From: Polystyrenella longa
GTDB taxonomy: Bacteria > Planctomycetota > Planctomycetia > Planctomycetales > Planctomycetaceae
Length of the DNA: 64,000 nt
Direction: 5' to 3'
Assembly (NCBI RefSeq): GCF_007750395.1
Contig: NZ_CP036281.1
Span: 1,182,501-1,246,500 of the forward strand
How positions within the stretch are numbered: position 1 is the stretch's first letter; each line of letters opens with the position of its first letter. The position numbers were made by a program, and so were the translations under genes. The notes beneath the pieces were generated by a model that saw only the letters and a list, made by a program, of their open reading frames with translations, was not told where the DNA came from and did not search any database. Below are positions 14,889-23,392 of this stretch, piece by piece.

Positions 14889-16703
14889 TTACTTGATGTC
14901 GACTTGGAACGGCATCAAGGTCAGGCCCGGTTGGCGAGCCAGTTGGTTGATCGCCCAGGTCTCTTTTAGCAATGAATAGAGGCCAGGGGCTTCTTGTTCG
15001 AGCAGTTTAGTGATCGATTGCAGTTTGGTTTCTGGGTCCAGATCGCCGAAGAGTTGTTCGAAGGGAGAAGGGGGAGTGGGCAGTTCGAGTTGTTCGACGC
15101 GATCTTTCTCCGTCAAACCAGCCAGTTCGGTTGCTTTTGCAATCGCCTGTGACAACGTTCCCAGTTCGTCAACAAGATTAATCTCCAACGCCTGCTCTCC
15201 AGTGTAGACACGACCCCGGGCCAGTTTTTCCAATTGGTCGAGAGGCATTTCGCGTCCTTCTGCCGCTTTCGTCGTGAATTGCAGATAGATGTCGTCGAGC
15301 ATTTTCTGCATTGTCGCACGCTCGCTCTCGTTCATCGGTTTGAGAATACTGATCGCGCCGCTGTTTTTGCCTCGGCTCAGGACGGTCGTTGTAATGCCGA
15401 CCTTTTCCATCAGCCCTTCCACCGCCACTTTACCCATAACAACACCGATGGACCCCGTGATCGTTCCCGGTTCCGCGTAGATGTAGTCTGCGCCCATCGA
15501 GATGTAATACCCACCGCTGGCGGCTACGTCACCCATGCTGACGACGATCGGTTTATCAACCTGTTCCAGTGCATGCCACATCAAGTCGCTGGCGAGTGCC
15601 GAGCCGCCCGGGCTGTTCACACGCAGGACTACTGCTTTGACTGTGTCGTCTTTGGCCGCTTTTCGTACAGCTTCGACAATCGTTTCCGAGCCCATGACAT
15701 CGCCAAACAGGCCATTTTGGCTTTTGCCCGGCATAATAGGGCCACTGGCGTAGACGATGGCGATTTTAGGAGTCGTCGATGCGCGTTTGTTAGGTTCTAC
15801 ACCCATCATCAGGTTCATCATTTTGACGAGACCGCCAAAACCGGAGAAGTCGGTGTCGACTTTTTCTTTACCATACTTCTCATCGAACTCCGTACGGGAA
15901 TCTCCACTGCGAAGCCGGGCCAGCAGTTCGTCTTCGTATCCAATCACGTCGACCAAGCCTTGTTGTTTGGCTTCCGTCATTGTGCTGATACCAGTGTCGA
16001 TGATATTTCCGACTTGTTCTTCGGTTAGAGAACGAGATTCAGCGATTGTTTTGACAATCATGCCGAAGTAGCTGTCGAGGATCGCTTCCATCTCTTCGCG
16101 GAAAGCGGGGCTCATTTCGGAACGAGAAATGGATTCCGCTGCGGATTTGTATTCGCCGACTTTCAACGCGTCTGGTTGAATGTCGAGTTTATCCAGCATG
16201 TTTTTGTAAAACTTGATTTCCATTCGCAGGCCGAGCAGCATGACGACGCCCGATTCGGGCATGATAATTTCGTCACAGGCAGAGGCCAGGAGATAATCCT
16301 TCATCGTGGCTGAATCGAGGTAGGCGTAAATCTTTTTACCCGACTCGCGGTATTGCAGAATGGCCTGTCGCAATTCGTTCAAGGTTCCAAAGCCAACTTG
16401 TGGGCTTTCGATCTTCAGCACGATCCCGGTCAGATGCCGATCCCGCTCGGCTGTTTTGAATTGCTTCAACACTTTTGCCAACGTGGTCTGAGTGGCTCCA
16501 AACAACCCCGGTGCGGCGGCCGCTTCGGGGTAGGTTCCTTTTAAGGTAATGTAAGCGTATTTATCGGCGGGTGGTTTTTCTGCTTTGGCTGCTTTACCCG
16601 TCTTGGCAAAAGCCGCTTCCGGTGCGGCAATGAGTGACGTGAACAGGGCGAAGCAGGTGAGGGCGAGAAACGCCCGGCGGGCAGATAGGGGGGGACGCAG
16701 CAT
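14889..16703 (-). CDS. sppA: Signal peptide peptidase SppA, 67K type
   Basis: A 604-residue serine protease with two tandem ClpP-like domains, of the long E. coli type. The N-terminal hydrophobic segment (residues 9-30) serves as signal or anchor. The general-base lysine is K186 in KVGEYKSAAES, in the first domain. The nucleophile is S396 in GDVAASGGYYISMG, in the second. VLRVNSPGGSALASD and GTITGSIGVVMGKV are further family marks. It degrades cleaved signal peptides in the membrane. The catalytic dyad is complete and the length normal. Confidence 0.93.
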   Translation of the reverse strand: MLRPPLSARRAFLALTCFALFTSLIAAPEAAFAKTGKAAKAEKPPADKYAYITLKGTYPEAAAAPGLFGATQTTLAKVLKQFKTAERDRHLTGIVLKIESPQVGFGTLNELRQAILQYRESGKKIYAYLDSATMKDYLLASACDEIIMPESGVVMLLGLRMEIKFYKNMLDKLDIQPDALKVGEYKSAAESISRSEMSPAFREEMEAILDSYFGMIVKTIAESRSLTEEQVGNIIDTGISTMTEAKQQGLVDVIGYEDELLARLRSGDSRTEFDEKYGKEKVDTDFSGFGGLVKMMNLMMGVEPNKRASTTPKIAIVYASGPIMPGKSQNGLFGDVMGSETIVEAVRKAAKDDTVKAVVLRVNSPGGSALASDLMWHALEQVDKPIVVSMGDVAASGGYYISMGADYIYAEPGTITGSIGVVMGKVAVEGLMEKVGITTTVLSRGKNSGAISILKPMNESERATMQKMLDDIYLQFTTKAAEGREMPLDQLEKLARGRVYTGEQALEINLVDELGTLSQAIAKATELAGLTEKDRVEQLELPTPPSPFEQLFGDLDPETKLQSITKLLEQEAPGLYSLLKETWAINQLARQPGLTLMPFQVDIK

Positions 16704-17307
16704 AGCGGGTACAACCTCATCGTTTTTTTAGGAGTGATCACCGACCTGGATTGGGCCTGTAATTTCAGAACGTCAAACTGATCAATGTCTGGCTTCAGAC
16801 CATTTTATTCCGTGAATGAACTGAAGTTCGTCCGAGACAGGCCCTTTATGGGGACCGGTTTTTCCGGGCGATTGGGGGCCGACATCGACTGTCCCCATTG
16901 TAGGCGACAAGTGTGACATTGTCTGCAACTTGCCTAAACTGATCTTGAAGTCCTGACGGTCTATTCGTTAGTCTAGGTTGCCTGCGTGGGACGGTCAAGA
17001 TGCGCTGGGCTGGTGGATGTGGAAAGTATAGCTTATGATACCGATCACACGGCCTGTATCTGGGCTAGTATCCAACCAGGGAGAACGAGCCAACTTGGCC
17101 CGTTTTCGGCAAGACTTTGTCCCCCAACTGGTTTGGGCTTTGAGAATCGGTTCGTTTTTTCAGATCGATTTCTCAATCCAGCGGACTTCAGCCGGCTAAA
17201 AAATTACTGTGCCGGTTCAAAAATAGTATATTCGTCTCGCAGTATCAGTTAGCTGCATCAGTTAAGTGTTGAATGATTCATCATCCGTGGGTGGGAAGGA
17301 CTCTGCC
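16704..17307. other. Intergenic region between divergent genes
   Basis: About 600 bases lie between the start of sppA and the start of the YhaO-like gene. No RNA gene, repeat or convincing coding frame was seen. It presumably holds both promoters, but no clear -35/-10 pair stands out. Confidence 0.35.
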
Positions 17308-18642
17308 ATGCCACAATCGCCATTACGGTTTCTGCATGCAGATCAATTAAACCTCGACGTTCCCTTTGAGGGGATCGGTACGCTTTCTGCGGACACGTTG
17401 AGGGAATTTTCAACTGCGTCGCTGGCATTGCTTAATAATATGCTCGAATGGGCGACGGAAGAGTCGCTCCCTTTTGTGCTGCTGACCGGTCCCCTGTTCG
17501 GAGCCGATCCTCCCAGTCTTGCCGCTCAGTCCGCGCTGCGCAACTTTGCTGCAGAATTATACGAGCTGGGTGTAGAACTGGTTCTTTGCCCGCACGCTCT
17601 CGAACGCGATTTACTTCCTCGCGACTATTGGAATGACTTGGACGCCATTCTGCTGGAGAACGACAAACCCGCGACGATCGAACTTGAATCAACGAATGCC
17701 AAATCAGACGCCCGGATGAAAATCCACCTGCAGGTCGCGCAGGAAAACAATCTGGATCGCACGTTCACGTCGCCTCCCGCAGGTACCGATTTCTCCCTCT
17801 GCGTATTAGAGGCAGGAACTCCTTTCGCCAGTTTACAGACATTGCTGGAACAATCTTCCGGAAACGCTCCGATCCCGGTAGAGGATTGCGAAGCCCAACT
17901 TCAGGAAACAATTGAGTCGATCCGGCGAACCGTGACGGCCGACTACGTCGCCCTCTCAGGATATGGATATCGCGCCGACGCCGGTAACGATGTCTCCCAA
18001 ACAAACGCTGTTTATCATTCCCCTGGCGGGTTGATGCCTCGCACATTTGAAGAGGCCTCTGTGCCGACGAATGGACAGGCAACATTGGTTTCCATTCATC
18101 AGGATCATTCCCTGCAATTTGTGCCGAAACGTCTGGCACCGGTCCGGTTACTTCCGCTTGAAGTGGATGTCAATCACTACTCCGACGAGAACGAGTTACT
18201 CAGGCACATGCAACAGGCACTCGATCAATACGAATCGGTCGCTGCTGAAAAACGTCTTGTGGTCCAATGGCGACTGCGGGGAGATTCGTCTCTTCTGTTC
18301 GAATTGGCAGAGCCCGAACATCGTCAAGAGCTAGCCAACCGCATCAAAGGAAGCAAGCCGCTGCTGCAGATCTGGCGTGTACAGTTCAACCGGGAGCTGC
18401 TCTCAAGAAATCAGCCGGAAGAATCGCTAGCGATTCAATACCTGGAACAACTTGAACTTTTTGCTGAGACAAATCGCTCCGAACTGGTCGCGGATTTTCT
18501 GACCAGAACGAAAGAGCACCCACAACTACAACATCGTCTGCGTCAGTTGGGGGCGGAAGTTTCCAACGAATCGATTTTGACCGCCGCCACGTTACAGGGG
18601 GCGCCTTTCCTGCTTGATCTGGATCAGGAGGACCCCCGATGA
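17308..18642 (+). CDS. YhaO/SbcD-like metallophosphoesterase that has lost its metal ligands
   Basis: 444 residues; start chosen at the ATG at 17308, with GGGAAGGA about 10 bp upstream. Its layout follows the YhaO/SbcD/Mre11 nuclease family, but each catalytic motif is altered. The D-x-H motif is Q-L-N in HADQLNLDVPF (residues 10-20). GDLxD is GPLFG in LLTGPLFGADPPSLAAQ (58-74). GNHD is replaced in LVLCPHALE (91-99), and GHIH is replaced in YVALSGYGY. The framework residues remain, so this is divergence of a true homologue. Its stop overlaps the start of the SbcC/YhaN-like ATPase gene by 4 bp (ATGA), indicating coupled expression. I infer a non-nucleolytic partner of that ATPase. Confidence 0.75.
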   Translation: MPQSPLRFLHADQLNLDVPFEGIGTLSADTLREFSTASLALLNNMLEWATEESLPFVLLTGPLFGADPPSLAAQSALRNFAAELYELGVELVLCPHALERDLLPRDYWNDLDAILLENDKPATIELESTNAKSDARMKIHLQVAQENNLDRTFTSPPAGTDFSLCVLEAGTPFASLQTLLEQSSGNAPIPVEDCEAQLQETIESIRRTVTADYVALSGYGYRADAGNDVSQTNAVYHSPGGLMPRTFEEASVPTNGQATLVSIHQDHSLQFVPKRLAPVRLLPLEVDVNHYSDENELLRHMQQALDQYESVAAEKRLVVQWRLRGDSSLLFELAEPEHRQELANRIKGSKPLLQIWRVQFNRELLSRNQPEESLAIQYLEQLELFAETNRSELVADFLTRTKEHPQLQHRLRQLGAEVSNESILTAATLQGAPFLLDLDQEDPR

Positions 18643-21600
18643 AGATCCGGCAGATCGAGATTGAACAATACGGCCCGTGGCGCAACTTGCAGCTTCCTTT
18701 CGAGGGACATCCTTTCGAGATGATTTACGGCCCGAATGAGGCCGGCAAGTCGACACTGATGCGGTTTATCCGTGCGGTGTTATATGGTTATGAGACCGAG
18801 AATCTGGAAGGACCGCGCGGAGACTTCGGAGAAGATCGTCGACGCGGAAGTTTACTCGTCGAGCATCGCGGCGCCGAATATCGATTGCAGCGAAATGCGG
18901 AATGGAACGAGCGTGGCCAATTACAGATCGATCGCATCACAGAGGGGGGCGAGCATCGCGAAGGCAATCCGGAGTCGGTGCTGAAAACGCTTACGGGCGG
19001 CACTGACGAGCTTCTGTTTAACAATATCTTTGCTGTGGGTCTCGACGAAATTCAGCAATTGGCTTCCCTGCATGACGATGAAGTGGGACAGCACATCTAT
19101 GGATTAACACTGGGACCGGAGGGACGTCGTATTTTGACGGCCAACCGTCAGGCCGGTCGCAAGTTGCATCAGTTATTCCAGACCGAACCTAACCGCGGGG
19201 AATTGTTGGAACTGCTGGCCGACGAAGACCGCTTGCGCCAGGAGATAGAACAGTCGACGTCGAATTCCGGACTGTATCAACAGAAAAAACAGCAACTGGA
19301 CAACCTGCGGCGAGAAATCGAGGAACTTCGTAAACAGCAAACCAGCCTGCAGCGCGAGCAGCGGGGCTGCCGATTCATGGATTTGATTTTCAAGCCTTGG
19401 CGACAGGTTTACGATTACGAACAGGAACTCCAAAGGCTCCCCGCCCGTCGTAACCTGCCGAGTGGCGGGTTGGAAGAGCTCAAAGGGCTTGACCGGAAGA
19501 TCCGCGAGTCGCGCCGATCCTATAAAGATCAACGGGGCCAGTACCGCGAAGGTTTGAAACTGAGTACCAATCTGAAACCCGAAACTGGGGTGCGCCGCCA
19601 TGCTCAGTTAATGCGGACTTTGCTGGATCAGAAGACTTGGTATCGTGACGAACGAGAACGAATTGACCTCTTCTTTACCGACCAGAATGCGGCCCGGCAG
19701 GAATTGGATCGTGAACTTGGTAAACTTCGGAATCTATGGCCGGATATCACTCTGGAGCGATGCCGAAAGATCAATGCGACAGCAGGGGATAGCCGCGAGT
19801 TACTGGCGACTGCCCGCAAATATCAACGCGAACTGAGTCGGCGAAATCGTTTCCGCAAACGATACGACAAACGAGTCCGGAAAAATCAGGCCCGTATGGC
19901 GGAATTGACTCAGATTCAAAACGACTTGAATGGCCTATCGATCAGTGACGCACTCAATCGTGCCCGGCAGCAACTGAGCGCCGTTAAACGCCGTTTGGAA
20001 TTGCAACTGCAAATGAAAGCGTTCCAGGAACGGATGGAACGATCTCAGGCTCAACTTGCCCGGCAGGAAGAACGGATCGGTTTGCCGACGATTGCCTACC
20101 TCGGAATCACCATCTTCGTTCTGGGAGGTTTCTTTTTCGTCGCTCTTGGATTGTGGGAAGCGGTTAAAACAAGTTGGTTGATTGGAGGGATTTATTTCTT
20201 CCTTGGTCTGACGGCTGCGGGTATTGGCTGGTCGATTAAATCTCACTTCCGTACTGCCGTCAGCGAAACTGTCCGCGAAACTCAGGATGATCTGTTCGAA
20301 ACTCGTGCGAAATTGAATCAGCTTCAGAAAGAGGCCGACTCTTTATTCGATCCATCAGCGAATCGGTTGGGAGACTCTCCAGACGAAGAAAGCCTGATCG
20401 ATCGCGCATATCGTAAAGTCCGGGATCTCGAAGGGAACCTTGAGCTGGAACAGAGGGTTCATAACGAACGGGAACGGCTCAGTCGCTGGCGAAATCGTTC
20501 GCAGGAACTGCAACGGAAGGTGAGTGAGGTTCGTCAGCAATGGTGTCAGCAGTTACAACGGGTCGGGCTGCCCGAGTCTGTCAATATTGATGAAACATTC
20601 GACTTGTGGGAACAAGTGCAGGCAACATTAGCGGCGGACAAGCATCTGCGTCAGTTGGAAGACTCACTCAACCAGCGCCGGCACACGCTCGATCATTACG
20701 AAAGCCAGGTTCGTCAGGTTAATGAAGATCTTTCTCTCGAAGGAGAGGCCGTCGGTCGGGACAACAACCTGTTGAAGCTTTTCCCACAATGGGAAAACCT
20801 GATTGGCCAGTATGGGGAATGGCGTTCTGTACGACGGAAACATCGTGCGGAAAGTCGTGATTCCCGCCGACAGGTCCGACTTCTGCAAAAGGAGTACGAA
20901 GAACTCCGAACGCGACGTAGCGGTTTGCTCGAAAAGGCGGGAGTGCATTCTTTAAAAGAGTATGCGGACCTCGAAGAAAAGCTGCAACGTCGGACCGAAC
21001 TGGAAGACCTGTTGATGCTTGCTCGGGAAGATCTGGATCGTCTGGCCTCGACCGAGCCTGACTTGGCGATTGTGGAAGATGATCTGGAAAAATTCGATCC
21101 AATTTCCAACAAGAACCGTCTGGGCGATCTCTCACAACGGGAACAGGTCACCAACGATAAACTCAGTCGGCGATTAGAAGAGACGGGTGCGCTCAAACAG
21201 CAGTTGGGCGAATGGGAATCAGACCAATCTCTGATGAAATACCGACAGGAGTTGGCGGCGGTTCGGGCCCGCATGCACGAGGCAACCTCGCAATGGTTGG
21301 GCGTGCAAGTAGGCCAGGAAATCACGCGCCAACTACAGACACAATACGAACGCACGCAGCAGCCTGAAGTGTTGGCGAACGCTTCGCGGTACTTTACGGA
21401 ACTGACCGAAGGCCGCTATCAGAATGTCTGGACTCCGCTCGGAAAACGGCATCTCTGTCTGGAAGATGGTCACAAGCAGGTGTTCCGGGTGGAACAGGTA
21501 AGCCGCGGTACACGGGAATTACTGTTTCTCTCCTTGCGTATGGCGCTGGTTCAGCAGTTTGCCGGTCGTGATATCGAGTTGCCCTTTATTCTTGATGATG

Positions 21601-21797
21601 TCATGGTAAACTTCGACCAGGGACGCACGGAGACGGCATTGTCGACCCTCCTGAAATGGGCGGAGGGAGGTCAACAGATTTTGTGCTTCACATGCCATCT
21701 TCATTTGGCGAAAATGCTGGAAGAACGAGGTGTGAAAACATTTCACCTTCCCAAAAACCAAACCGCCGCAGAAGCAGGGAACAGATGGGCTGGTTAA
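18639..21797 (+). CDS. YhaN/SbcC-like SMC-type ATPase with internal membrane segment
   Basis: A 1052-residue Rad50/SbcC-class ATPase. Walker A is G31-P-N-E-A-G-K-S-T39. The C-terminal lobe carries the signature VSRGTRELLFLSLRMAL and Walker B LPFILDDVMVNFDQGR. Long charged coiled coils fill residues about 190-470 and 540-900. Between them, near residues 485-535, lie two hydrophobic helices (IAYLGITIFVLGGFFFVALG and WLIGGIYFFLGLTAAGIGW), which would place the coil apex at the membrane, as in YhaN. The ATPase motifs look intact, unlike those of its nuclease-like partner immediately upstream. It probably acts in DNA-end or membrane-linked maintenance; the exact role is unknown. Confidence 0.85.
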   Translation: MKIRQIEIEQYGPWRNLQLPFEGHPFEMIYGPNEAGKSTLMRFIRAVLYGYETENLEGPRGDFGEDRRRGSLLVEHRGAEYRLQRNAEWNERGQLQIDRITEGGEHREGNPESVLKTLTGGTDELLFNNIFAVGLDEIQQLASLHDDEVGQHIYGLTLGPEGRRILTANRQAGRKLHQLFQTEPNRGELLELLADEDRLRQEIEQSTSNSGLYQQKKQQLDNLRREIEELRKQQTSLQREQRGCRFMDLIFKPWRQVYDYEQELQRLPARRNLPSGGLEELKGLDRKIRESRRSYKDQRGQYREGLKLSTNLKPETGVRRHAQLMRTLLDQKTWYRDERERIDLFFTDQNAARQELDRELGKLRNLWPDITLERCRKINATAGDSRELLATARKYQRELSRRNRFRKRYDKRVRKNQARMAELTQIQNDLNGLSISDALNRARQQLSAVKRRLELQLQMKAFQERMERSQAQLARQEERIGLPTIAYLGITIFVLGGFFFVALGLWEAVKTSWLIGGIYFFLGLTAAGIGWSIKSHFRTAVSETVRETQDDLFETRAKLNQLQKEADSLFDPSANRLGDSPDEESLIDRAYRKVRDLEGNLELEQRVHNERERLSRWRNRSQELQRKVSEVRQQWCQQLQRVGLPESVNIDETFDLWEQVQATLAADKHLRQLEDSLNQRRHTLDHYESQVRQVNEDLSLEGEAVGRDNNLLKLFPQWENLIGQYGEWRSVRRKHRAESRDSRRQVRLLQKEYEELRTRRSGLLEKAGVHSLKEYADLEEKLQRRTELEDLLMLAREDLDRLASTEPDLAIVEDDLEKFDPISNKNRLGDLSQREQVTNDKLSRRLEETGALKQQLGEWESDQSLMKYRQELAAVRARMHEATSQWLGVQVGQEITRQLQTQYERTQQPEVLANASRYFTELTEGRYQNVWTPLGKRHLCLEDGHKQVFRVEQVSRGTRELLFLSLRMALVQQFAGRDIELPFILDDVMVNFDQGRTETALSTLLKWAEGGQQILCFTCHLHLAKMLEERGVKTFHLPKNQTAAEAGNRWAG

Positions 21798-23392
21798 GCC
21801 GCGACGTTTACCAAGTCACACACAACCAATTTTCATGCAAAAGCCAAATTGCACGCTACTACCGTCGGATGCTTTGTGTTTCGGCGCTGCTGCTCACGCT
21901 TTTGACGGGCTGCGATAATCCATCGAATTCGCAAGCCACGCCGTCTCCGGATACGGGCGTGCCGATGGGCGAACCGAATCCCGCTCGTCTCTCTCCCGGT
22001 CAGGATCTCCCCTCGCCAACAAAGCGAGATTCGGCCGCTCTGGATGCGCACATCACGCAGGAAATTCTGGCGGAGGAGCCAGTTCAGTTTGACAACCAGA
22101 CCGAGCCGGAACAGGTCTACCGCCCGGTCGACCGACGACAAGTTCCTGATCCGGGATTGCTCGATCAACTCGGTATCCACATGGTGGAGTCCAAACACAT
22201 CCGGCTTTACAGCGATTTGCCAGTCGAGCAGATCGAATCCTTGCCTCCGTTGGTCGACCAGTTGATTGCGGCACTGGAAAAATACTTTGGAGAGCTTCCT
22301 CCAGATCGAGATGGTAAAGCTTTTCAACTGTCAGGCTATATCATGCAAGATGTTCCTCTGTATGAAAAGTCGGGTCTGCTCCCTCCGAAGTTTGCACAAG
22401 TGCAACATGGTCGACATCAGGGAGCCGAATTCTGGATCGTCGTTCCCGCTTCCGAATACTACCTGCGACACCTCCTGTTTCACGAAGCGACCCATTGCTT
22501 CATGATGTATCTTCCCGGCACCTCTGCTCCCGTCTGGTATCTTGAGGGAATGGCTGAATTGTTCGGGACGCATTGGCTACGAGAGGATGGCTCGATTGAA
22601 TTCAACATCTTTCCTGAATCAACGACGGCCTACGAAGGCTTTGGCCGAATTGAACTGATCAAGCTGGATATCGACGAGACTGGTCCCAAAATGATCGAAC
22701 AGGTGACCAATCTGGAAAGTGGTGGGTACCACAGTAATGTCTCCTATGCCTGGGCATGGGCACTCTGTTCCTTTTTCGATCAGCACCCTGAATATCAACA
22801 ACGATTCCGGCATCTCTCTCGACAGTATTTGCGTGAAGAACCGTTCGTGGAGAACTTCGTGAAAGAGTTTGCACCTTTAGCGACTCGGCTTAACCAGGAG
22901 TGGATCGCGATGATTTCCGAACTCGAATACGGAATGGAGATCGACCGTCTGGCAATCGATTTCACACCCGGGAAACCAATCGAGGGAGCTGTAGAAATCG
23001 AAGTCGCTGCGAATGAAGGTTGGCAGAATAGCCGTTGGCTACTGGAGGCCGGCAAGACTTACCGCGTGCAGGCGACTGGTCAGTTTGAACTTGACGAAAC
23101 AACCCGGCCCTGGACCAGCACCGCGGAGGGAATCAGCATCGACTACTACCGCGGAGCGCCCTTTGGACGATTGCTGGGAGCAATTGCACCTGCAGAAGCT
23201 GAAAGCCCAGAACAGAATTACTGCTTCGCTCAGTTTGCCAATTTCGGTAAGGAACTGGTGTTCCGCGCTCCCTATACGGGAACGCTCCACTTACGTCTTA
23301 ATGACCGGCCCGATTTGATGTTTGATAACAAAGGCACGGTGCAAGTCCGTGTCGAAGAAGTCGAAATGCCAACCGACGAATCGGCTCGTTAA
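21785..23392 (+). CDS. Lipoprotein zinc metallopeptidase (gluzincin, peptidase MA-like) with lectin-like C-terminal domain
   Basis: 535 residues from the ATG at 21785, which overlaps the previous stop by 13 bp; another ATG at 21869 starts directly at the signal peptide. The signal segment ends in a lipobox LLTGC with C43. The peptidase motif H233-E-A-T-H237 (LLFHEATHCFMMYL) is followed by WYLEGMAELFG, whose glutamate is the third zinc ligand of gluzincins. The C-terminal 150 residues (WLLEAGKTYRVQATGQFEL, GISIDYYRGAPFGRLLGAI) resemble the PA-I lectin / galactose-binding fold. It is likely a surface protein whose target is unknown. Translation is probably coupled to the ATPase gene. Confidence 0.75.
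   Translation: MGWLSRDVYQVTHNQFSCKSQIARYYRRMLCVSALLLTLLTGCDNPSNSQATPSPDTGVPMGEPNPARLSPGQDLPSPTKRDSAALDAHITQEILAEEPVQFDNQTEPEQVYRPVDRRQVPDPGLLDQLGIHMVESKHIRLYSDLPVEQIESLPPLVDQLIAALEKYFGELPPDRDGKAFQLSGYIMQDVPLYEKSGLLPPKFAQVQHGRHQGAEFWIVVPASEYYLRHLLFHEATHCFMMYLPGTSAPVWYLEGMAELFGTHWLREDGSIEFNIFPESTTAYEGFGRIELIKLDIDETGPKMIEQVTNLESGGYHSNVSYAWAWALCSFFDQHPEYQQRFRHLSRQYLREEPFVENFVKEFAPLATRLNQEWIAMISELEYGMEIDRLAIDFTPGKPIEGAVEIEVAANEGWQNSRWLLEAGKTYRVQATGQFELDETTRPWTSTAEGISIDYYRGAPFGRLLGAIAPAEAESPEQNYCFAQFANFGKELVFRAPYTGTLHLRLNDRPDLMFDNKGTVQVRVEEVEMPTDESAR

Follow-up and report, generated by a model that had tools for sequence, protein, structure and literature searches.

The YhaO/YhaN gene pair

The stretch of the Polystyrenella longa genome analysed here, hereafter the window (64,000 nucleotides; G000:C1:1182501-1246500, in a genome of one 6.1 Mb contig), carries two plus-strand genes that, as judged from their sequences, belong to a nuclease-dead branch of the SbcEF (YhaN/YhaO) systems. 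The first, at 17308..18642 (+), encodes P0001, a YhaO-like pseudo-nuclease of 444 amino acids with an Mre11/SbcD fold, recognised from its open reading frame (ORF), an alignment of ligand positions, profile matches and its predicted fold; its start is taken as the ATG at 17308, with a longer alternative from the GTG at 17266 being possible. The second, at 18639..21797 (+), encodes P0002, a YhaN/SbcE-like ATPase of 1052 amino acids and of the Rad50/structural maintenance of chromosomes (SMC) type, assigned from its ORF, Pfam AAA_27 match, model and profile. The ORF list has the two genes overlapping by 4 bp, as stated in a preliminary description of this DNA that was made from the sequence alone.

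That description had also claimed that every metal ligand of an SbcD/YhaO-like subunit was replaced, and alignment of P0001 to an intact paralogue from the same genome (L075) agrees: of eight metal-ligand or catalytic residues P0001 keeps 0/8, with Q, N, P, A, L, E, G and G standing where the intact protein has D, H, D, N, H, H, H and H. The former motifs were located by alignment on the plus strand. D-x-H of motif I has become Q13-x-N15 within HADQLNLD (17335..17358); GDxxD of motif II is replaced in TGPLFG (17485..17502), with P62 and G65; GNHD of motif III is replaced in PHALE (17590..17604), with A97 and L98; E168 occupies the motif IV histidine position (17809..17811); and GHxH of motif V is replaced in SGYGY (17956..17970), with G218 and G220. 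Hence it is on the aligned ligands that P0001 fails as a putative member of the Mre11-type nucleases. A Pfam search of P0001 returned no Metallophos match up to E 1 and nothing of note, and an NCBIfam search gave no SbcD-model match over the cut-off. The intact paralogue matches Pfam Metallophos at E 5.2e-14, and its 64 bits against the NCBIfam sbcd model (cut-off 77.65) are the genome's only, sub-threshold, SbcD-model match; downstream of it lies a YhaN of 1174 amino acids without a membrane segment, making up a soluble-type pair in the same genome as the window.

Single-sequence searches of the PDB gave no match for P0001 or P0002. A profile of P0001 built from 17 relatives matches Mre11 structures at E 9.5e-6, and its AlphaFold2 model (54-row alignment; predicted local distance difference test, pLDDT, 85.3; predicted template modelling score, pTM, 0.83) has as its top Foldseek matches the Mre11 chains of Mre11:Rad50 complexes (E 7.9e-12), with a query TM-score of 0.39-0.51 among the matches listed (50). 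VIA-align places the model on human Mre11 (9q9j; Z 21.8, root-mean-square deviation 4.3, 307 aligned) and on SbcD of the E. coli SbcCD head (7yzp; Z 19.1, root-mean-square deviation 6.2, 325 aligned, reaching residue 417). Structural alignments mostly stop near residue 363, with a few, to Mre11/SbcD in solved complexes, reaching 406-417. These computations on a predicted model show P0001 as retaining the Mre11/SbcD phosphoesterase and cap domains (residues 2-363) without any active-site residue, while in the same model the C-terminal helices are less well supported as Mre11-like than those two domains. Chance resemblance and a misread ORF are ruled out by the profile and fold matches. Helix 28-51 (17389..17460, +; model and conservation) occupies what we take to be the place of the Mre11 dimer helix, and the C-terminal helices 362-441 (18391..18630, +; model and VIA-align), of which the part to ~417 aligns with SbcD/Mre11 only in a few solved complexes, may by analogy bind Rad50.

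P0002 matches Pfam AAA_27, presumably the family of YhaN, at 3e-18, and its profile and predicted structure both resemble Rad50/SMC proteins. The AlphaFold2 model (38 rows; pLDDT 80.2, pTM 0.43) consists of a split head (residues 1-180 and 906-1040), two long arms and a helical hairpin. The Walker A, signature and Walker B motifs named in the preliminary description are present by sequence alignment as GPNEAGKS (18729..18752, +), the signature-like VSRGTRE (21498..21518, +) and FILDDVMVN (21585..21611, +), the last containing FILDDV. Hence P0002 has a Rad50/SbcC-type split ATP-binding cassette (ABC) head with all three motifs, together with an antiparallel coiled coil. Its Walker B ends in DD, like most relatives including intact ones; an ending in DE was seen in L150 and L163, from records titled Chloroflexi and Aminicenantes.

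In the model, the N-terminal coiled-coil arm (residues 188-478; 19200..20072, +) and the C-terminal arm (residues 541-906; 20259..21356, +) meet at an apex bearing a membrane hairpin of helices 484-510 and 513-540 (20088..20258, +; hydrophobicity and model). The two membrane helices of the preliminary description are thus recovered as two hydrophobic segments at ~484-510 and 513-540, strong in the first (Kyte-Doolittle 19-mer 2.36) and weaker in the second (1.53). Basic residues (R475, R479, K534 and R538) flank the hairpin on the arm side, hence cytosolic arms and heads would fit. No CxxC zinc hook is found at the apex, and since the sole CxxC, at residue 1016, sits in the C-terminal head, P0002 is without such a hook. 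Profile residues 328-553, spanning coil and hydrophobic hairpin, also match the pore-forming toxin structures MakA and NheL1 (E ~3e-6), matches that are probably compositional.

Distribution of the pair

We assembled 144 distinct YhaO/YhaN pairs, the window's included, and called an ATPase membrane-type where its Kyte-Doolittle 19-mer maximum over residues 200-800 exceeded 1.55, a cut chosen after the values had been seen (observed maxima were >=1.58 in membrane-type ATPases and <=1.24 in the others). Eight of the 144 were set aside from scoring as fragments with more than two ligand positions unaligned; also set aside were four duplicates and 12 of 159 loci without a pair, seven of the 12 being ATPase loci that abut a contig end. 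At L147 the 4 kb upstream of the ATPase contain no YhaO match, and L087, L091, L093 and L205 have a YhaO match with no ATPase within the distance rule or the fetched piece. A YhaO-like gene lies upstream at 72/80 loci fetched by their ATPase alone, and seven of the other eight start fewer than 700 bases from the end of the fetched piece.

The ATPase was membrane-type in 131/144 pairs and not in 13, among which L090 has only 126 ATPase residues, so that its class cannot be judged. The 13 soluble-type pairs comprise 12 with 8/8 ligands and one with 7/8. The membrane-type pairs divide into nine with 8/8 ligands, 114 with 0-5/8 and the eight fragments; 0/123 scored membrane-type pairs have six or seven. 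All nine intact membrane-type pairs carry the hairpin, two coming from non-planctomycete records (titled Fluviicola and Aminicenantes), and these sequences most simply suggest that the membrane hairpin predates the loss of the nuclease. The membrane tether, which the preliminary description had singled out as the unusual part, is therefore not a novelty, as it is shared with relatives whose nuclease is intact. Two further observations concern members of this sample: the ATPases of genus g38 (L065, L070 and L071) are ~1250-1420 amino acids long, compared with ~1050 for most of the family, and L112, from a record titled Candidatus Kuenenia stuttgartiensis, has a pair that resembles those in Planctomycetaceae records, L109 among them, and is probably a mislabelled or mixed bin.

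A survey with the membrane-type ATPase profile covered 248 genomes of the class, with completeness >=90 requested; its calls are profile scores, hydrophobicity having been calculated for completely fetched ATPases only, and its family counts cover the matches listed, with the 31 no-match genomes falling outside those families' counts. The profile reached E <=5e-138 in 72/73 genomes of the window's family and E 1.7e-10 in the 73rd (G009), and all 28/28 genomes of family f2 reached E <=4.3e-129. Among the matches listed, no genome of f93 or f94 was better than 1e-65, hence the class does not carry the pair universally. The upstream YhaO-like protein keeps <=2/8 ligands in all 72 genomes of the window's family, as read from 28 members of the pair collection (one via an identical copy) and 44 further loci, with >=3 ligand positions unalignable in five (G007, G027, G050, G059 and G061). 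Counts were 1-5/8 in 16 further f2 genomes and 0-5/8 in 14 genomes of other families, one of which (L296) offers merely a 23-residue scrap. In the six genomes of f104 (L277-L282) the ATPase matches at E ~1e-150 to 1e-176 and the upstream protein scores only 41-67 bits as a YhaO, possibly a stage of further erosion or of replacement.

Origin and order of ligand loss

In a YhaO tree of 87 rows (left of 130 usable ones after thinning at 60% identity), built by a quick method and used to assign clades, a single branch splits 17 intact rows from 70 dead rows with a Shimodaira-Hasegawa-like approximate likelihood ratio test (SH-aLRT) support of 100, and the ATPase tree likewise needs one intact-to-dead change. 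The dead rows form two clades: the window sits in one of 39 rows (support 100), and the other, its sister of 31 rows (support 91), consists mostly of Pirellulales and other class families. Long branches (L156, L202, L200, L175 and L160) leave the details of the tree unsure, and the tool warns of a possible artefact in the joining of the window to L160.

The sister clade retains D1, H2, D3 and H7 in 96/124 cells and N4, H4, H5 and H6 in 15/124, 14 of these 15 being H5, with H4 and H6 together at 0/62; the corresponding figures in the window's clade are 16/156 and 3/156. In Mre11 of P. furiosus, one metal is bound by D8, H10, D49 and H208, the other by D49, N84, H173 and H206, and the catalytic residue is H85. 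We take D1, H2, D3 and H7 to be metal site 1 of Mre11, an assignment for which a literature search brought no confirmation. If these site assignments are right, the loss of ligands looks stepwise from the aligned residues, with catalysis and most of site 2 going first and site 1 later, in the window's clade.

Close homologues with restored catalytic residues, which the preliminary description had named as a sign of a copy merely decaying, were sought, and none occurs in the pairs read. Genome G031, of the window's family, carries both an intact membrane-type pair (L089), the only one found in that family, and a dead pair (L297; 1/8 ligands; 400 bits against the YhaO profile and 1137 against that of the membrane ATPase). 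A return to activity is rejected for it, as L089 groups with the intact outgroup and the genome also carries the dead pair. Neither do GHxH strings represent a retained motif: those in L235, L243 and L244 are at or beside a conserved AHxPG region, off the aligned ligand site, and the one in L282, a poorly aligned protein, is found near residue 105.

Selection and conservation

Ratios of nonsynonymous to synonymous substitution (dN/dS) were calculated for the dead YhaO by the Nei-Gojobori method over 83 pairs, with frames taken stop-to-stop except for the window's, such that a short pre-start stretch is included, which tends to raise dN. Among pairs of the same clade type as the window, the nine with dS <1 have a dN/dS of 0.07-0.35; between the window and its nearest relative, L056 (Planctomyces sp. 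NAT128, from the contig that also carries L096), it was 0.19 at a dS of 1.75, near saturation. Pairs from f100 reached 0.44, and dS was saturated in many other pairs. The preliminary description had suggested collecting planctomycete homologues to see whether ligand loss was common to relatives and under purifying selection, and both hold, given the <=2/8 ligands in 72 genomes and the dN/dS of 0.07-0.35. As its relatives have lost the ligands too and selection on the gene is purifying, the sequences support P0001 being a retained pseudo-nuclease, rather than a decaying copy. Computation from these sequences likewise shows that both genes are passed on as a pair and maintained by purifying selection.

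Conservation was compared as mean entropy between the 39 rows of the window's clade and the 17 intact rows, all examined regions being somewhat more variable in the larger clade. Conservation has shifted: the motif V loop rises from 0.61 bits in intact rows to 2.53 in the window's clade, while two helices remain almost as conserved as in the intact rows, helix 28-51 going from 1.66 to 2.08 and helix 71-86 from 1.87 to 1.94.

Relationship to known systems

The pair resembles SbcEF of Bacillus in its adjacent yhaO-yhaN genes, the AAA_27 head of its YhaN and its nuclease-fold partner, but differs in that the window's YhaO is without active-site ligands, Bacillus being compared via the literature rather than by sequence. 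We read SbcF as YhaO. In the relevant passages of three papers, SbcE is YhaN and the SbcEF cluster is called putative double-strand-break repair (PMC3896406, PMC4205851, PMC6452273). The LexA/SOS regulon as tabulated for Bacillus pumilus includes yhaO, at a value of 8.76, and yhaN, at 8.73, and their cluster is up after peroxide (PMC3896406). A passage of another source links SbcEF to break repair and calls its part there poorly characterised (PMC6452273).

Compared with Mre11-Rad50/SbcCD, the predicted folds and profile matches of both subunits are alike, but the window's pair is without metal ligands and a hydrophobic hairpin replaces the CxxC zinc hook. As a precedent by analogy, the nuclease-deficient SbcCD H84Q variant is described as having ATPase activity only ~15% lower (PMC6265447). 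A nuclease-dead Mre11 or YhaO in planctomycetes was not found described among the top-ranked matches in the open-licence literature. Elsewhere, VPS29 and the B subunits of eukaryotic replicative polymerases are catalytically dead phosphoesterase-fold subunits, which likewise have lost the metal centre and kept the fold as a subunit, although their complexes differ.

Proposed function and alternatives

The preliminary description suggested a structural or sensing role, which is plausible. More specifically, the pair may be a nuclease-dead SbcEF complex acting as a non-cutting, ATP-driven, membrane-anchored clamp on DNA, a reading we put forward tentatively, at marginally under an even chance. 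Two pseudo-nucleases would dimerise through their N-terminal helices, and their C-terminal helices would grip a pair of YhaN coiled coils at the base, joining two ABC heads. ATP binding would shut these heads on DNA, be it an end, a fork or a duplex, while the YhaN arms would extend to the cytoplasmic membrane. The pseudo-nuclease would hence be a DNA-binding and dimerising platform, and the complex would hold or sense DNA at the membrane, with cutting left to other enzymes, such as the soluble-type pair with an intact YhaO that the genome also carries. In this model complex formation, DNA binding and membrane location come from fold and family, the predicted structures being of single chains. 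In its favour, as we weigh them, are the predicted fold, the ATPase architecture, the gene pairing, the loss of ligands with retention of the gene, the selection on it, the helix conservation, the SbcCD H84Q precedent and the intact pair in the same genome.

Several observations weigh against this clamp. Firstly, VIA-align rates the residues of P0001 beyond 363 as barely tested, and the C-terminal helices, at 2.94 bits, are no better conserved than the rest, hence an ATPase-binding surface on P0001 is assumed; this weakly tested part slightly lowers the likelihood that we give the clamp, and slightly raises that of a pure scaffold. Secondly, the correlation between YhaO and YhaN distances is only moderate in the window's clade, at r 0.66, against 0.92 in the sister clade. 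Thirdly, the second membrane helix of P0002 is weak, and the low pTM means that the placement of head to arm in its model is not fixed. Fourthly, the window belongs to one of the more divergent lineages, which may not represent its clade. Finally, no family of neighbouring genes is shared by more than five loci (<=5 among 86 eligible dead-pair loci, many ending at contig ends), and the neighbours point to no pathway.

A broader proposal, which we regard as possible but rather doubtful, is that at least two large planctomycete families carry a near-universal Mre11-Rad50-type complex from which cutting was lost stepwise (site 2 and the catalytic histidine, then site 1) after descent from a membrane-anchored nuclease, and which is now a dedicated ATP-driven clamp that keeps the nucleoid, forks or DNA ends at the cytoplasmic membrane. 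If true, the clamp would amount to a naturally occurring separation-of-function form of Mre11-Rad50, the tethering, sensing and clamping functions of which are hard to study because they share one complex with cutting. The window's lineage seems to split these functions, with nuclease residues lost stepwise and the fold, partner and gene pair under selection. Hence the series of ligand counts, from 8/8 through 1-5 to 0-2, would let one probe non-cutting roles and the link between DNA and membrane.

The main rival to the clamp is a pure scaffold or chaperone, in which the part of the pseudo-nuclease is confined to dimerising, stabilising or regulating the ATPase, like VPS29 and the polymerase B subunits among dead phosphoesterase-fold subunits, and the ATPase acts on a substrate other than DNA, such as the envelope or a membrane protein. 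The much lower conservation of the former active-site loops in the window's clade (motif V, 2.53 bits) fits this alternative, as do the six f104 genomes that keep a strong ATPase match beside a 41-67-bit YhaO, as if YhaO could erode further; but the Mre11 phosphoesterase and cap architecture is retained, and intact relatives have the same membrane-type ATPase. We judge it unlikely, if deserving of serious attention.

Two other functions seem improbable, and to much the same degree. A sensor for anti-phage or anti-plasmid defence, of the SMC/ABC-ATPase type, is suggested by the resemblance of predicted P0002 to SMC-like proteins, Wadjet JetABC chains included, and by the 22 PADLOC models that reach E 1 for P0002 (the best at 1.3e-7, with mad3, at 2.6e-6, covering residues 14-1024). 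However, most of these matches cover the P-loop region only, there are none for P0001, and a full-length PADLOC match accompanied by partner genes was found for neither protein. Moreover, the occurrence of the ATPase in 72/73 genomes of the family and 28/28 of f2, among the matches listed, is unlike that of patchy defence systems, and no neighbour or effector is conserved. Alternatively, P0001 could still be an enzyme, whether through a remodelled pocket with other chemistry or through one-metal activity in members of the sister clade. The 96/124 cells of D1, H2, D3 and H7 kept in the latter, and the recurrence of N, R and N at the first three positions in the window's clade (18, 24 and 22 of 39), are compatible with this, but the window's protein, with Q, N and P, shows neither pattern, and columns N4, H4, H5, H6 and H7 vary more than the median column in that clade.

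Decay to a pseudogene is the least credible alternative, as the long stem of the window and its nearest relative (1.56 changes per column) and the faster evolution of YhaO than of the ATPase (58% compared with 76% identity to that relative) are outweighed by the dN/dS values, in that comparison (0.19 at dS 1.75) and in the nine closer dead pairs, by the full-length open frame in both, by near-universality in the family and by the shared ligand loss, on which grounds we reject it.

Genomic context

Scans for promoters and terminators gave counts no higher than in shuffled sequence. Upstream of the pair, on the opposite strand, lies a signal peptide peptidase SppA (14889-16703, -; TIGR00705 over cut-off). 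The ORF at 21656-23392, for which Pfam and NCBIfam searches gave no match, has a lipoprotein-like stretch, LLTLLTGCDN, in its interior; no other fetched locus joins its cluster than the two nearest relatives of the window (L056 and L057), where a homologue also follows the pair.

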